27,869 nucleotides of DNA from the IMG/VR virus record IMGVR_UViG_3300009183_005245, positions 1 to 27,869 of that record, one strand, 5' to 3'. Positions 6,920 to 27,300 of the stretch are shown piece after piece (the stretch's first letter is position 1; every line of letters begins with the position of its first letter). The translations under genes were made by a program, and so were the position numbers. The notes below the pieces were generated by a model. The model saw only the letters and a program-made list of their open reading frames with translations, was not told where the DNA came from and searched no databases. The DNA is from a virus.

Positions 6920-7743
6920 GCTTTATTTAATCGGTCCACAGTCATACTAATAACTTGTTGATTAGGGTCGTTAGCCCGCATTTTGACCCAGGGATCTCTT
7001 GTGCCTTCGCAACACTCTGCAAAGAAACTCATGTCTTGATTCTTCACATCCTGCAACCATTGCGCCAGTTTGGCTGCATCTTGCATTCTAAGTTCAACCA
7101 CGCTTGGATAGTTAAAGTCTAGAGGATTACTCCGATCGCCTTCAAGTACTATTCTCTGCTGATAAGTTGCATCATTGTTGGTACCTGTGAGGTCAGCACG
7201 TTCATGATTACAGTAGATGGGCAAGCGTTCAAAGATGTCCAGAGCATAGGCAATACAACTGACCCAGGCATCATTGAGGCTGTGTTGACTAATGTGTCCC
7301 AGTGTTTCAAACCACGCACGTGGAATGATAGGAAAAATTGAATAAGGATGTTCGTTGTGTGTTATTACACTTAACAATTTAAATTCGCCAATCTTGGCAC
7401 GTATGTAAGTATCCCATCCTTGAGTCGTCATTACAGCATCATCGTTCCAGAAGAACATCCACCCACCTTGGCTGTTTTCAGCCAGGCCGTTTAGATAGCG
7501 ATGCAGATTGTGATAGCCCATGGGCTCAAATATCACAATCTTGTGTGATATATTATGTGTTTCAATCCAGGGTATGACATGATGCAACAGATATTCAAGT
7601 CCAATGGTATCATTATTGTCCATACCTAGTACAAGTTCGATTGTGGAAAAGTCAGTGGCCAAATCATGTAGGCTGGAGAGACTACGCATGAGCATGTCTG
7701 ATCTACCACGTGTGGGCAACAAAATTGAAATATCCGTGCTCAT
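6916..7743 (-). CDS. GT-A-like glycosyltransferase (paralogue of the 4144-5028 gene)
   Basis: The 275-residue protein starts MSTDISILLPTRGRSDMLM from an ATG that overlaps the queD stop as ATGA. It carries the same architecture as its paralogue: TRGR loop, LGMDNNDT in place of the first acidic motif, GWMFFWNDDAVMTTQGWD (likely metal/nucleotide-sugar site), a conserved NEHPYSIFPI(I)PR segment, and CNHERADLTGTNND. This is a glycosyltransferase family 2-like fold by recognition of these segments. Its compact start supports trimming the N-terminus of the paralogue. Lying directly after queD, it is likely translated with it. The donor and acceptor are unknown. Confidence 0.82.
   Translation of the reverse strand: MSTDISILLPTRGRSDMLMRSLSSLHDLATDFSTIELVLGMDNNDTIGLEYLLHHVIPWIETHNISHKIVIFEPMGYHNLHRYLNGLAENSQGGWMFFWNDDAVMTTQGWDTYIRAKIGEFKLLSVITHNEHPYSIFPIIPRAWFETLGHISQHSLNDAWVSCIAYALDIFERLPIYCNHERADLTGTNNDATYQQRIVLEGDRSNPLDFNYPSVVELRMQDAAKLAQWLQDVKNQDMSFFAECCEGTRDPWVKMRANDPNQQVISMTVDRLNKA
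7427..7461. repeat. 35-bp direct repeat, copy 2 (glycosyltransferase paralogues)
   Basis: Second copy of the 35-bp repeat, 34/35 identical to 4652-4686 and in the same orientation about 2.77 kb away. The near-identity at nucleotide level, including third codon positions, points to recent duplication or gene conversion of this motif-bearing part. Confidence 0.85.
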
Positions 7744-8237
7744 GCAAATAAATCTTCATTCCATTCTCTATGGCCTTCTCGGAAAGCCATATTACTCTGT
7801 GTTTCGCGTACTTCTACACGATAGCACCAGAGTCGCTCTGCTTCACCCTGCCCCCAAAAGTCAGGAATGTAAACGCCATTAACAAACCGGTACAGTTGGT
7901 CAGCAAGACCTTCGCATCCAAGTCGGGGTAATATAGTTAGTTTGGCAATGTTGCGACGTTGCATTTCTTTGTAGAGTTCCAGTTCAGGATCATCTTCAGC
8001 AACCAACAATGTGTGATCAAATTGATCTTCTAGTACGTTTTTAAGTTCTTTGAGACCACCATAATCAGCGGCCCAGTTACGAACGTCTAGGTCGTTTGTA
8101 CCAAAGTAAAACTTCATTGAGAACGAATAGCCGTGTATCAAATTACAATGGCTGTCGGCTCTCCATTGTCTGTAGGCGCACGGAAATGCATCGTGGTATT
8201 CTTTGGTTGAAGTGTATTTGTAAGTTACGGGTGTCAT
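7740..8237 (-). CDS. queD: QueD-type 6-carboxytetrahydropterin synthase (PTPS family)
   Basis: QueD turns 7,8-dihydroneopterin triphosphate into 6-carboxytetrahydropterin. The 165-residue protein has the family layout: SHCNLIHGYSF (residues 29-39) with the catalytic Cys at C31 and the first zinc His at H35, FDHTLL (the Asp-His catalytic pair), CEGLADQLY in place of PTSEVLA, and VEVRET (the binding Glu). It is odd in the zinc site: HGH is HGY (Y37), and the usual upstream AAH reads CAY (C20-Y22), so only H35 is canonical; C20, H30 or H15 may substitute. A clear AGGAGA Shine-Dalgarno 6 nt upstream and a consensus-like promoter make this the first gene of the left-hand train. Confidence 0.88.
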   Translation of the reverse strand: MTPVTYKYTSTKEYHDAFPCAYRQWRADSHCNLIHGYSFSMKFYFGTNDLDVRNWAADYGGLKELKNVLEDQFDHTLLVAEDDPELELYKEMQRRNIAKLTILPRLGCEGLADQLYRFVNGVYIPDFWGQGEAERLWCYRVEVRETQSNMAFREGHREWNEDLFA

Positions 8238-8254
8238 GCTGTTTCTCCTATGTT

Positions 8255-8285
8255 AAATTATAGCATAGACAGCAGAGTTTGTAAA
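8255..8285 (-). promoter_or_regulatory. Sigma70-like promoter upstream of queD
   Basis: On the minus strand, TTTACA (8280-8285) and TATAAT (8257-8262) are 17 bp apart, with an extended TGC before the -10. The -10 ends 20 nt before the queD ATG and an AGGAGA site follows. It is the only strong promoter seen before a train of overlapping genes reaching the left edge. It shares most of its sequence with the promoter at 9035-9063. Confidence 0.8.
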
Positions 8286-8318
8286 GCGGGAATGATGTCC
8301 GAGACCGCTGAATATTTA
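8255..8318 (-). repeat. Promoter cassette, copy A (imperfect direct repeat)
   Basis: This stretch shares with 9033-9091, in the same order and orientation, an AATAAATATT-like element beside the preceding stop codon, AGCGGT, and then ACTCTGC(T/C)G(T/C)CTA..CTATAATT. The promoter-proximal 27 nt match at 22 positions. The spacer between AGCGGT and ACTCTGC is longer in this copy. The two copies lie on either side of the methyltransferase gene. Confidence 0.7.
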
Positions 8319-9017
8319 TTTTTCAAATACTAATCTAATATTTCCATCTATAGGTTCATCGTATATTTCTGTAATTAAATTATCAATAACTAAAAAATTT
8401 AAAGGTAACATTTTAATTTTTTGATTTATATAGTCCGAAAGTTGATTGTTATTGGGGTCTTCGGTATTAAACAACTCTTTTAAAATTTTTTTATCTGTCT
8501 GTTCAACCATCCGAGCCATATTCATCGCAAGATATCCTCTGCCTCTGGGTTTTATAATATTTGCAAAATCTAACACTCGTTTATAAAAATTTGTTATTGG
8601 AACAAAATGTAGCGCATCGATAGAAAATGCACACTGGAAAAAATCTGTATGTCCGGTAATAAAGTCATCATCAAATACGTCATTGACATCACGCCATTTT
8701 CCATGTCCATCGAAACCTGTGATTCCGGGAACTATATCTTTAAAAAAATTCATACCACACCCGATGTCTGCAATTTCCAATGGTTCTATTTCTAATAATT
8801 TATTTAGATAATAAAAAGATGAACACGGAATAAGTCCGAATACCACTGAGTACCTGGGAGTCTCGCAAGAATGCGCATTATCGTCGGACTTATAAAATTT
8901 ACGGAAATCATTTACTGTAAACTTTCCGTATTTGTTTTTGATTTTCTCTTTAAAAAATTCAACAACTTCTCTACATATTTCTTCGTTATATGGATTAAGT
9001 TGCAACTGATTTACCAT
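8316..9017 (-). CDS. Class I methyltransferase-like protein, AT-rich cassette gene
   Basis: The protein is 233 residues from the ATG at 9017 (MVNQLQLNPYN), chosen because TAAGGATAAC precedes it and because a longer TTG start at 9035 would fall on the -10 box. It contains IADIGCGMNFFKD (motif I), GFDGHGKW (in place of the acidic end of strand 2), and CAFSIDALHFVP (motif IV), followed by IIKPRGRGYLAMNM. This is the Rossmann methyltransferase pattern, with an unusual motif II. The target is unknown. The gene is markedly more A+T-rich than the HIT gene and queD on either side. It has its own promoter and is bracketed by two similar promoter cassettes, so it looks like a later insertion. Confidence 0.7.
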   Translation of the reverse strand: MVNQLQLNPYNEEICREVVEFFKEKIKNKYGKFTVNDFRKFYKSDDNAHSCETPRYSVVFGLIPCSSFYYLNKLLEIEPLEIADIGCGMNFFKDIVPGITGFDGHGKWRDVNDVFDDDFITGHTDFFQCAFSIDALHFVPITNFYKRVLDFANIIKPRGRGYLAMNMARMVEQTDKKILKELFNTEDPNNNQLSDYINQKIKMLPLNFLVIDNLITEIYDEPIDGNIRLVFEK

Positions 9018-9032
9018 GTTATCCTTATATGT

Positions 9033-9063
9033 CAATTATAGTCTAGGCGGCAGAGTATGTGAC
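9033..9063 (-). promoter_or_regulatory. Sigma70-like promoter upstream of the cassette methyltransferase
   Basis: On the minus strand a perfect TATAAT (9035-9040) lies 17 bp from GTCACA (9058-9063), a 4/6 match to the -35 consensus. The spacer carries the same ACTCTGC.G.CTA sequence as the queD promoter. The ATG at 9017 is 18 nt from the -10, giving a short leader with AAGGAT. A TTGACG further upstream is at 22 bp, too far to be the -35. Confidence 0.7.
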
Positions 9064-9083
9064 GTCAATACCGCTTAAAGAAA

Positions 9084-9091
9084 TATTTATA
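9084..9091 (-). promoter_or_regulatory. Possible T4-type late promoter box TATAAATA
   Basis: TATAAATA on the minus strand exactly matches the known T4 late promoter consensus read by the gp55/gp33/gp45 system, and it overlaps the stop codon of the HIT gene. The matching place in copy A has AATAAATA (7/8). An eight-base AT-rich match can arise by chance, so support comes only from its repetition at the same relative position. Confidence 0.35.
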
Positions 9092-9488
9092 CTGGCTGTT
9101 TGTAGCCACCAGTTTTATAGTTTTGTTGTGCAGGAATGACCCCACGCACACCACCAATAGGGTCTGTGCAGTCACCAGTTTTGCGAGGAATCAAATGAAC
9201 ATGTGGATACATTACAGTTTGTCCAGCGGCTGGTCCTTGATTGATACCAATGTTGTAGGCATCACACTCACCCAAGTTAATCATTGACTCTCCAGCCAAT
9301 TGAGCACTGTAAAATGCTTCGTTGATCACTTCAGGTGTGTTGAAGTTGGGCACAAACAGCAAATGACCGTTAGTGACTGGGAAGCGATCTCGGAACACAG
9401 TGACATGAAAGTCCGACAGTTCATCTATCTTTAGATCCCAAGGTGCCGCTCCAGCGGCCTGTGCTGATTCTAGTGTTTGGTATTTCAT
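9087..9488 (-). CDS. HIT-family (histidine triad) nucleotide-binding protein
   Basis: The protein is 133 residues from the ATG at 9488 (MKYQTLESAQAAGAAPWDL), the usual length of a HIT protein. The alternative long frame opens only at a TTG (9593) and overlaps a better-placed small ORF; the chosen ATG overlaps that ORF's stop as ATGA. HIT features are HLLFVPNFNTPEV (substrate-strand region), GINQGPAAGQTV and YPHVHLIPRKTGD (residues 94-106), where H96 and H98 match the second and third His of the triad; the first His is replaced by Tyr94. HIT proteins hydrolyse nucleoside phosphoramidates, dinucleoside polyphosphates or nucleotidyl-sugars. It is co-transcribed with folE, though a role in that pathway is not established. 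Confidence 0.82.
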   Translation of the reverse strand: MKYQTLESAQAAGAAPWDLKIDELSDFHVTVFRDRFPVTNGHLLFVPNFNTPEVINEAFYSAQLAGESMINLGECDAYNIGINQGPAAGQTVMYPHVHLIPRKTGDCTDPIGGVRGVIPAQQNYKTGGYKQPV

Positions 9489-9598
9489 ATAGTAGTCAAA
9501 TGATATTGTGAATGTGGATAGTGTTGTTGTAACCATTCCAACAGCCCTGGTTCCACAGGCAGTTGAATAGATCCGTCGTGATTGGAAATGCAACTCAT
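9485..9598 (-). CDS. 37-residue small ORF between the membrane protein and HIT gene
   Basis: An ATG at 9598 opens a 37-codon frame (MSCISNHDGSIQLPVEPGL... ending LTTI) that stops at 9485-9487. Its start overlaps the stop of the 64-residue gene as ATGA, and its stop overlaps the HIT start ATG as ATGA, so it fills the gap exactly between two real genes. This double coupling is the main evidence that it is translated. It has no recognised domain; the WLQQHYP segment may form a short helix. It may be a functional micropeptide or only a coupling device. Confidence 0.6.
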   Translation of the reverse strand: MSCISNHDGSIQLPVEPGLLEWLQQHYPHSQYHLTTI

Positions 9599-10568: not shown

Positions 10569-10597
10569 ATTGTATAGTATTTAGATTGTGTTGTCAA
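10569..10597 (-). promoter_or_regulatory. Sigma70-like promoter upstream of folE
   Basis: On the minus strand a perfect TTGACA (10592-10597) and TACAAT (10569-10574) are separated by exactly 17 bp. They lie in the only non-coding gap between the SGNH gene and folE, 39 nt before the folE ATG. The spacer does not share the ACTCTGC element of the two cassette promoters, so folE may be regulated separately from queD. Confidence 0.78.
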
Positions 10598-11225: not shown

Positions 11226-11840
11226 CTACTTAATGGATATACTGCTAACATCTGGATAAACAAAATGTTTATCCAGTTGCGTGGTAAATTTTTTTTCTGC
11301 CAGTAAGTTAAGTCCAGTGACACATTCTTCAGGCCGCATGTAATAATGATAACCTACTTGAAATTCTTTTTGTTCAATCCATGGGCCGATGCGCAGATCT
11401 CGACCATCGTACCGCATCATGCTGGCCTTGCGATATATTTCAGCATCATCGGTTAGTATACATCCACCTTGGCCAATTTCCAACGGTTTACTCCGTCCAA
11501 AACTAATGCACTGTATGCTTCCTGCCACATACATATCCGGTTTAAAATAACGAGCACAGTCCCATACGCGACTGCCTTCAAACTTATAGTAGTCTTTCCA
11601 TTTGTTGTCGGTCAACTGATACGGAATATTTAACTTGTGCATGGTCATAGGAACACTAAGATATGTATACGCAGGGAATGTGACCCAATCTTCATAGTCA
11701 CTTAGTCTAAATGCTATTTCGATTGCATGAGTACAACAATCTGTAGAGATACAATAAGGTGCGCCAGTAAATTTGGCCACTGCTGTTTCAAAGTCAAATA
11801 TTGCTTGGAAAGGATTTGAGTAATCTTCTAGTTTGATCAT
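11226..11840 (-). CDS. Short DegT/DnrJ/EryC1/StrS-type aminotransferase domain protein
   Basis: The 204-residue protein matches the N-terminal PLP-binding half of sugar aminotransferases: ISTDCCTHAIEIAFRL (residues 31-46, phosphate-binding cap), VTFPAYTYLSVPMTM (53-67), VWDCARYF (Asp94, in the place of the PLP-pyridine Asp), and ISFGRSKPLEIGQGG (112-126) with Lys118 as the probable PLP lysine. Full members are about 370 residues; the C-terminal domain is missing here. The frame ends cleanly with no remnant in the 11 nt before the next gene, so this is a short version and not a fresh frameshift. It may transaminate a nucleotide-sugar with GalE upstream, or be a binding-only form. Confidence 0.75.
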   Translation of the reverse strand: MIKLEDYSNPFQAIFDFETAVAKFTGAPYCISTDCCTHAIEIAFRLSDYEDWVTFPAYTYLSVPMTMHKLNIPYQLTDNKWKDYYKFEGSRVWDCARYFKPDMYVAGSIQCISFGRSKPLEIGQGGCILTDDAEIYRKASMMRYDGRDLRIGPWIEQKEFQVGYHYYMRPEECVTGLNLLAEKKFTTQLDKHFVYPDVSSISIK

Positions 11841-18200: not shown

Positions 18201-19727
18201 TTATTCTAATGCTTCGAGTTTATCGGTATCCAGATCTTCAGGATCAGTATCTGGCTCTTCAAACGTAAACAATGCATTGAACTGTGTTCGAGCATTCATG
18301 GTCTTTTTGCCTTTGAATCCTCGTGTGCCCACAATCTCCATCCAGTAAGTGCTGTACAATTCTATGATATCTTCTGCAGTTTGTCTATCCGGTGCGGCGA
18401 AAATAGCCTCTACAATGTCTTCAAACTTGGCATAGTCTCCCCCACTTCGGCGCATCATGGCAGGATGTTCTCCTGCATCAAAACGTCGATTGGCTTCTTG
18501 TACCGCTGTCAAGTGCATCCAAACATTATGACCCATGAGCAAAGCATATGAGAAACTGTCCCATGATGTTTTGCCTTCCTTGCCATTTTTATTTAGGTCG
18601 CCTGGCCGGTAATGACAAATATCCTTCATCTTTAACAAGTCGCTTATGGGCGAGTCTTGCCAGCGTGGATAGATGCCATCTTGAACTACCCCGTCTGACC
18701 ACTTGCGTGTGTCTGTGGAATATTTTTTGTCATCGGCCGAAGGAGCCATGCGATACGACCACTTTGAGTCGTGTTCAAACACGTTTTCAAAGTAGACCTG
18801 TCCGTTTGCTGTTGCAAGGAACGGACTGGCGCAGTCAAACGAGATTGTGAAGTTTGGATTGACATATTTTCTTACAGCCCTCTGGATTACAGTTAATAAA
18901 ACAGCCCACTCCAGTTTGGAGGTTCCCAAGAAGTGCATCCAATCATGCTTGCCCTCTTGTAACAAATTGTCATAACGTAATGCTACCAAACGTTTCAGCA
19001 CCAAGTGTACGTCACACATGTTTTGTCCACCCATACTCCACCCGTTAAAATGTGTGTCTGGGTACTTGACAGGATCGCAATAGTCTTTCATGAGTTGATA
19101 CCAATCTTCTGCTGAAGTGTGGTTATCACCTTGCAACACGTTTAGGAATCTAGCACCACCATTTTTGACACCGCGGCGGTGTTTCATAAAGTACTCGTTA
19201 TTGTATTTGGTGGCATCTACCGCTTCTTGTAGTGTAGTAATACCACATGCACGACTGGCTTCCTTGTTGTGAATAACCCAAGTTGGAATATCAAGTATCA
19301 TGCCATAGTCAGCAATGTTATCCAGCCACTTTAGTACACCGTCTCGCTTTTTTTGAGCCTTGGGGCAACCTGAGTTGGCCTTCCAATCACCCTCCCACAA
19401 ACCCTTAGCGATCTGGAAACCACCTGAGTCACCGAGGATAAAGGTGCCAGGCTCTCGGGCTCGAACCATGTCTTCGGACCAGTCTTGTTTAGCAAGGTCA
19501 AGATTCGCATGTCCACCTGAGTATAGCGACCACTTGTAGGGGAAAAGGGCCTTGGTACTGTTGAGCCAATTAAGTTGCTCCATATCCGTAAGGCCCTGAG
19601 GAAATCGAGCCGGATCCACATAGTGTTCATTTCTTTGTCTACCTATGAATGTAGAATAAAATCCAGATATTGCTGGAAGAAATACTGCATAGTCATTTTG
19701 TTTGGAGGTTAAGTTGTCTTGCGTCAT
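18201..19727 (-). CDS. dpdA: DpdA-like 7-deazaguanine DNA transglycosylase (TGT superfamily)
   Basis: The 508-residue protein has the tRNA-guanine transglycosylase signature positions: ILGDSGGFQIAKG (residues 97-109, Asp100 for base recognition), MILDIPTW (143-150), FLNVLQG (194-200), GWSMGG (229-234), FLGTSK (266-271) and ISFDCASPFLATANGQVYF (295-313), where Asp298 matches the TGT nucleophile Asp in its FDCVLPT motif. ALLMGHNVWMHL resembles the C-terminal TGT helix, but the CxCxxC zinc motif is not intact (only C371 and H400 are in place). These departures are the mark of DpdA, which exchanges guanine for a 7-deazaguanine in DNA. The start overlaps the sulfotransferase stop as ATGA. Together with FolE, QueD and QueE, it defines the modification system here. 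Confidence 0.88.
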   Translation of the reverse strand: MTQDNLTSKQNDYAVFLPAISGFYSTFIGRQRNEHYVDPARFPQGLTDMEQLNWLNSTKALFPYKWSLYSGGHANLDLAKQDWSEDMVRAREPGTFILGDSGGFQIAKGLWEGDWKANSGCPKAQKKRDGVLKWLDNIADYGMILDIPTWVIHNKEASRACGITTLQEAVDATKYNNEYFMKHRRGVKNGGARFLNVLQGDNHTSAEDWYQLMKDYCDPVKYPDTHFNGWSMGGQNMCDVHLVLKRLVALRYDNLLQEGKHDWMHFLGTSKLEWAVLLTVIQRAVRKYVNPNFTISFDCASPFLATANGQVYFENVFEHDSKWSYRMAPSADDKKYSTDTRKWSDGVVQDGIYPRWQDSPISDLLKMKDICHYRPGDLNKNGKEGKTSWDSFSYALLMGHNVWMHLTAVQEANRRFDAGEHPAMMRRSGGDYAKFEDIVEAIFAAPDRQTAEDIIELYSTYWMEIVGTRGFKGKKTMNARTQFNALFTFEEPDTDPEDLDTDKLEALE

Positions 19728-26691: not shown

Positions 26692-27300
26692 ATGTATTTA
26701 CACTTCTATGTCTATGCCTATCTAAGAAAAGATGGCACACCTTACTATATCGGTAAAGGTAAAGATCGTCGTGCTTGGAAACACAATAAAACAGAACAAT
26801 TTATAACCCCTCTGGACAAATCACGTATTGTGATTCTTGAAAAAAATTTGTCTGAAGTTGGCGCATTGGCCTTAGAAAGAAGAATGATTCTTTGGTACGG
26901 ACGTAAAGATTTAGGAACAGGAATCTTACGAAACAAAACCGATGGTGGCAACGGCATATCGGGTTTGAAACAAAGTGATGCTCATATTGAAAAGAGAATA
27001 TCAAAGATTAGAGGAAAATCTGCATGGAACAAAGGTATTCCACACAAAGAAGAAACTTTACAAAAAATGCGTAAACCTCGATCTGCTGAGCAGATTGCTA
27101 GTATTTCAAAAGGAAAAATTGGAAAGCCACATCCTATTTCAAAATCAACTTGTCCGCACTGTGGAAAAACTGGAGGTAACAACAATATGAAACGTTACCA
27201 TTATAATAATTGCAAGAAAAATGCTCACTTTGTGGATCACGGTAGCGAATCGCTTTCCACGCCCAGCACCCGGGCACCCTCGCAACTAGTGCGGTCCTAA
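26692..27300 (+). CDS. GIY-YIG homing endonuclease with NUMOD3-type DNA-binding repeats
   Basis: The 202-residue protein starts [15 protein letters not shown] and has the GIY-YIG core [19 protein letters not shown] (YAY...YIG), an ERRMILWYG helix with the catalytic Glu, and KTDGGNG. A NUMOD3-like region follows ([28 protein letters not shown]) and then a Cys/His segment [18 protein letters not shown] that could bind zinc. AAAGGAG precedes the ATG. It is the only plus-strand gene, as expected for a free-standing invader like the T4 Seg enzymes, which nick intron-less alleles and spread by repair. The last ~25 codons (from about 27225) are much richer in G+C than the rest. Confidence 0.9.

Follow-up and report, generated by a model that had tools for sequence, protein, structure and literature searches.

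A repeated promoter-like element in an uncultured phage fragment as the core of a putative structured leader RNA of queD

Sequence comparison indicates that a short repeat in an uncultured phage fragment is the core of a conserved folded leader RNA of about 75 nt that belongs to queD in uncultured phages. The fragment, viral record IMGVR_UViG_3300009183_005245, was analyzed over its full 27,869 bases and is called the window below. As far as comparative data can tell, the leader is a new and comparatively well-supported phage leader RNA for queD, and no earlier description of it was found in the open-licence literature that we searched. Few structured regulatory RNAs are known that are the phages’ own rather than those of their hosts. 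This one is tied to a single gene of the 7-deazaguanine route, which other phages use to modify their DNA against restriction (PMC6884629); it is small enough for direct ligand tests and would reveal how the timing or dosage of the pathway is set in such phages. The window also illustrates a gene insertion that results in two copies of the leader, one of which decays. We consider it probable that the leader RNA controls queD translation as a switch, and that this reading, together with an inner promoter and the insertion, is the best explanation of the locus as a whole.

The genes around the repeat lie on the minus strand in the order FolE, a 64-aa ORF, HIT, copy 1 of the repeat, a methyltransferase-like gene, copy 2, queD, a glycosyltransferase, and a radical SAM gene. 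The leader belongs to queD (7740..8237, minus strand; 6-pyruvoyl-tetrahydropterin synthase family, PHROG 2389 with E 1e-35 and Pfam PTPS with E 7e-14), and its usual upstream neighbor by synteny is the HIT-domain gene (9087..9593, minus strand; Pfam HIT, E 1e-10). FolE, QueD, and QueE are all encoded in the window, as judged from Pfam/PHROG matches, and a tRNA scan of it found no tRNA. Its DNA polymerase makes the phage T4-type and has its nearest counterparts in jumbo phages, among them Phosso, Atu_ph07, and 121Q.

The original prediction described two direct copies of a promoter cassette around an AT-rich gene, and the repeat itself is real. Positions 8256-8282 and 9034-9060, both read on the minus strand, are identical at 22 of 27 positions, and the 22-nt pattern ACTCTGCNGNCTANNCTATAAT with up to 3 mismatches matches twice in the window compared to 0.02 matches expected from dinucleotide shuffles. 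Both copies have ATAAATATT overlapping the preceding stop codon (HIT TAA at 9089-9087, methyltransferase TAA at 8318-8316) as well as AGCGG (9075-9071 and 8309-8305), and the GC content of the gene between them is about 31-34% versus 42% for the window. The distance from TATAAT to the next ATG, described as the same in both copies, is similar but only approximately equal (23 and 25 nt from the first base of TATAAT to the ATG). Overlooked at that stage was an 11-nt stretch, TTCCCGCTTTA, which copy 2 has between AGCGG and ACTCTGC, which copy 1 lacks, and which includes one strand of the conserved stem P1 described below.

The two copies are not equivalent. Copy 2 upstream of queD (8235..8311, minus strand; ATG at 8237) is intact and scores 83.5 bits with our covariance model (E 1.6e-15), while copy 1 upstream of the methyltransferase-like gene (9015..9076, minus strand; ATG at 9017) is decayed and scores 19.3 bits (E 0.02), so that the fold appears to be kept for queD and not for the methyltransferase. 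In copy 1, the 11-nt deletion between 9060 and 9059 takes away the 3′ strand of P1, and the hairpin P3 is altered as well; copy 1 of locus L081 has the same deletion. In copy 1 the SD is computed to be largely unpaired in the window (0.79), and the value for L081 (0.43) does not clearly show the same. Two equal copies from one recent duplication are excluded, given that copy 1 has the HIT-side flank of the empty site and the deletion common to L081.

A conserved stretch of about 75 nt precedes queD in most of 80 close IMG/VR relatives. For a reverse test without selection on queD, 2.9 million viral contigs were scanned for exact occurrences of the 22-nt motif, and at least 119 stretches matched. 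The fetched loci held 126 exact motif matches, 124 of which precede a QueD homologue and 125 of which carry the upstream P1 stem, and more than 100 contigs of uncultured phages in IMG/VR carry the leader. At the two exceptions, the leader is followed by a 293-aa ORF that lies between it and queD and, by reading its sequence, looks GIY-YIG-like (L101, 7776-8657, minus strand) or by a short unclassified ORF (L154). Of 24 records (22-353 kb) searched with the covariance model, 23 hold a single copy and that of L082 holds two, and the leader is therefore not a general phage promoter; a generic phage promoter or middle-promoter motif is excluded by this copy number and the link to queD.

Beyond these contigs the leader was not detected: Rfam scans gave no family above gathering scores, and blastn of 50,697 phage records did not find it. 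In the isolates with the closer queD genes (ACP17, X1, and Phosso; no more than 52% identity across the match), there is hardly any room, or none, for a leader upstream of queD. Across the bacterial and archaeal genomes of GTDB (257 billion bases), a 17-base pattern gave 21 matches compared to about 30 expected by chance according to our own estimate, and the one match examined as an example (L213) is not a leader. With GTDB matches at the estimated chance level, a host-derived element is excluded.

Comparison of 73 dissimilar aligned leaders establishes the predicted fold, an H-type pseudoknot formed by P1 and P2 that is followed by an SD hairpin, P3. Stem P1 is 5 bp of AGCGG/CCGCT and variants; in copy 2 (8285..8309, minus strand), 8309-8305 AGCGG pairs with 8289-8285 CCGCT, and over the 73 leaders 99.5% of cells are paired with two-sided changes at 3 of 5 pairs. 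P2 joins the P1 loop to the downstream tail (e.g., GGCA/TGCC, GACA/TGTC, or GGTG/CACC) and in copy 2 (8267..8300, minus strand) consists of 8300-8296 GGACA with 8271-8267 TGTCT; here 90% of cells are paired with two-sided changes at 4 of 5 pairs, and the outermost G-T pair, which occurs in this copy only, was left out of the counted set. Loop 3 (TTACAAACTCTGC, 8272..8284, minus strand) is highly conserved, and its CTCT can pair with the GGAG of the SD, a pairing of conserved CUCU and GGAG that RNAalifold also returned. Hairpin P3 (8247..8269, minus strand) pairs TCTATG with CATAGG and covers the SD sequence AGGAG of queD (8245..8249, minus strand), with 97.2% of cells paired for P1 and P3 together. 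P2 and P3 compete because they share nucleotides, 8269-8267 in copy 2.

For P1 and P2 together, 95.2% of cells are paired and 58 two-sided changes compare to 14.4 in shuffles, with a covariation of 0.229 versus 0.073 that none of 500 shuffles reached; pairing drops to 40-52% once a strand slides by 1-3 columns. Covariation among related sequences can be inflated, but a check on the QueD protein tree, read without P2 pairs 19-51 and 20-50, argues against inflation here: P1 pair 5-33 undergoes 7 changes and all rows have either GC or CG there, and P2 pair 22-48 switches state 28 times without any independent pair to the contrary. The structural evidence for the leader is comparative, and single-sequence folding of the two window copies is uninformative (z of -1.7 and 0). 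A DNA operator as the source of this conservation is opposed by the variable length of loop 1, the interlocked helices, and the pairing of the SD on one strand.

A second leader lineage (L020, L029, L030, L031, L041, L055, L065, L066, and L080) retains P1 and in most members P2, which is weak in L030 and L031, while the TATAAT and the CTATG/CATAG hairpin are gone. In these leaders P3 was apparently swapped for other small SD hairpins such as ACTC/GAGT in L065.

In the switch that we propose, an open pseudoknot would let P3, helped by the CUCU of loop 3, hide the SD, while closure would take up P3 bases and the CUCU and free the SD, which makes it an ON switch. The SD is mostly paired in the computed ensemble. 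With P1 formed it is unpaired at 22%, and this value becomes 33% when the P2 strand alone is blocked, 36% for loop 3 alone, 61% for the whole pseudoknot region, and 23% when the P3 loop is blocked instead, although these folding energies omit pseudoknot terms and a calculation with partner strands occupied is by its nature biased toward a free SD. For most lineages the prediction is thus that translation occurs with the pseudoknot closed; two leaders, L030 clearly, are predicted to switch the other way, and the different P3 of L030-type lineages counts against the switch model. A further point against ON is the expectation that a sensor giving feedback from a pathway product would switch translation OFF.

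The trigger would most likely be a metabolite of the 7-deazaguanine/pterin route, and we put a small-molecule ligand at somewhat short of an even chance. QueC (PF06508) turned up in just 1 of 18 related records that have leader and queD; therefore, synthesis by the phage may end at CDG unless QueC comes from the host, and preQ0 and preQ1 are not obvious phage products. CDG as a possible end product may bear on the choice of ligand. In its most specific form, the proposal would be a phage-only riboswitch class outside Rfam and isolated phages in which a 7-deazaguanine/pterin intermediate turns queD ON through the competition of pseudoknot and SD hairpin, with an internal promoter supplying a switch-free transcript; this we offer tentatively, as a reading with more chances of failing than of holding.

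The repeat had originally been read as a promoter, which is partly right, and a sigma-70-like sequence does lie in the repeated part: in copy 2 (8257..8285, minus strand) it reads TTTACA-17-TATAAT with TGC before the -10 and fits 11 of 12 consensus positions, and it occupies the same position in most leaders of one lineage. The strongest signal is, however, RNA base pairing upstream of and around this promoter. An extended -10 sigma-70 fit occurs at one place in 22 of 32 QueD-first leaders; in most leaders of the main lineage the -10 has a fixed place within P3. Further upstream, a late-promoter-like TAAATA overlaps the methyltransferase stop codon before copy 2 (8313..8318, minus strand), where it was noted from TAARTA enrichment, and TATAAATA in the sequence overlaps the HIT stop codon before copy 1 (9084..9091, minus strand). 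These sites resemble the late promoter of T4-type phages, NATAAATA/TATAAATA (PMC2984593), and are putative here. TAARTA precedes P1 in 54 of 73 leaders versus 5.3 in shuffles and 4 in the next 28 nt upstream, an excess that may in part be TAA stop codons of the upstream genes; in a 200-kb relative, late-promoter-like sites number 19 in sense and 9 in antisense orientation compared to 10.6 in shuffles. Overlapping early and late promoters have been described for RB49 and S-PM2 (PMC2984593). Under the switch model, transcripts from the putative upstream TAARTA site or from the FolE-HIT genes would carry the full switch, while in the main lineage the putative inner extended -10 promoter would give short transcripts without P1, P2, and the 5′ arm of P3 that escape control.

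The same arrangement could be read with the hairpin alone. T4 genes e, soc, 49, and I-TevI have RBS-sequestering hairpins that a promoter’s transcripts cannot form (PMC3014915, PMC2988022), and if the leader worked like those of e, soc, and I-TevI, P3 would silence read-through transcripts, those of the inner promoter would be translatable, and P1 and P2 would play a minor role. This documented precedent and the fixed place of the -10 within P3 in most main-lineage leaders speak for it, and P3 likewise covers the SD AGGAG and covaries, and transcripts from the putative inner promoter would lack its 5′ arm. Unlike in T4, the inner promoter is sigma-70-like rather than late, and an extra conserved pseudoknot lies upstream. 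Since P1 and P2 are conserved more consistently than any other part, with strong covariation, and 10 of 32 unbiased leaders retain the element despite a poor promoter score, we regard the hairpin alone as a rather unlikely explanation.

A protein operator, in which translation would be repressed through binding of the pseudoknot by a phage protein such as QueD, a gp32-like protein, or some other repressor, would fit one site per genome before a single gene, as expected of QueD autoregulation, and T4 gp32 does use a leader pseudoknot on its own mRNA (PMC3014915). As in T4, the pseudoknot of the leader lies upstream of the RBS, here in a phage whose DNA polymerase is T4-type. The gene 32 operator, however, needs several UUAA(A) repeats after the pseudoknot and over the RBS (PMC3014915), whereas the leader has at most about one UUAA-like stretch and no run of them, precedes a different gene, and has an SD hairpin downstream. 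It also stands before the methyltransferase-like gene and before queD homologues that diverge to only 30-40% identity with that of the window, and its loops nevertheless stay nearly fixed. We consider this kind of control unlikely.

In layout, the leader is nearest to class I preQ1 riboswitches (RF00522; reviewed in PMC11625349), and it could be one that has diverged past the Rfam model. Both are small H-type pseudoknot leaders with a 5-bp P1, a short P1 plus loop-tail P2, an A-containing loop 3, and involvement of the SD, and both control a queuosine-pathway gene. Class I members have a specificity C directly before the P1 3′ strand, as UC or AC (PMC11625349), and the 73 leaders have an invariant C there that is mostly preceded by U as in type I. 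By the tests applied, the leader is not a member: the RF00522 covariance model placed none of 14 records over the cut-off, scans of small regions gave nothing, and the best score at a leader was 9.3 bits versus a cut-off of 39, below the model’s own matches elsewhere. The loop-1 U that reads preQ1 (PMC11625349) is not retained and is T, C, or A across the aligned leaders, and loop 3, instead of being short and A-rich, spans about 13 nt and ends in a conserved UCUGC. Different from class I, the SD lies in a separate competing hairpin, switching is predicted to be ON rather than OFF, and the element is phage-only. A diverged preQ1 riboswitch therefore seems to us a poor prospect.

Mobile regulatory cassettes of T4-type phages, reportedly described by Arbiol et al. 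in a 2010 paper that PMC4177764 cites, resemble the window in having promoter-like sequence and a stem-loop that flank an inserted gene, and copies beside other cargo in L083 and L199 would suit them; yet the leader is bound to one gene with one copy per genome and has a complex covarying RNA fold, and several copies per genome before unrelated genes were not found among the 24 records and the exact motif matches, so that the portable promoter cassette of the original prediction is not supported and is very improbable.

The methyltransferase-like gene (8316..9017, minus strand; 233 aa) is recognizable by a DIGCG-type motif only, gave no Pfam or PHROG match, and has only 4 relatives in IMG/VR; an AlphaFold model from 5 sequences is poor (pLDDT 48). 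By comparison of loci, the gene is best read as an insertion between HIT and queD, and the empty site with a single element that had been anticipated does exist: 71 loci, some of which share a contig, have HIT-leader-queD with one leader and no methyltransferase. That the element moved together with the gene held in part. It stands, complete or damaged, before all five methyltransferase copies, but L084 has HIT-leader-methyltransferase-queD with no second leader copy, and leader and gene therefore do not always travel together. Both leaders are intact in L082 (leader-methyltransferase-leader-queD), the first is decayed and the second intact in L081 and the window, and L083 has leader-methyltransferase with no queD nearby. 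After the insertion, the HIT-side copy would have decayed while the queD copy stayed intact.

L199 has two leaders on the minus strand, near 11413 and 9182; the first is followed by the first queD-like codons only and a radical SAM gene, and the second by a complete queD. Judged by this order, L199 would be a second insertion event at the same junction, parallel to that of the window, and cargo seems to have entered at the leader-queD junction more than once. Such insertions could plausibly have come about by recombination between leader copies, and a homing endonuclease such as the GIY-YIG-like ORF of L101 could help cargo into the junction.

Elsewhere in the window, a 508-aa protein (18201-19727, minus strand) without a Pfam match shares 36% identity with hypothetical proteins from Pseudomonas jumbo phages of the PA5oct group and, given its position amid queuosine genes, may be a Tgt/DpdA-type base exchanger. 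A single gene lies clearly on the plus strand (26692-27300); it is GIY-YIG/NUMOD3-like with weak Pfam scores and probably encodes a homing endonuclease. A second promoter-like site in the gene block, TTGACA-17-TACAAT (11 of 12 consensus positions), lies in the gap upstream of folE (10569-10597, minus strand).
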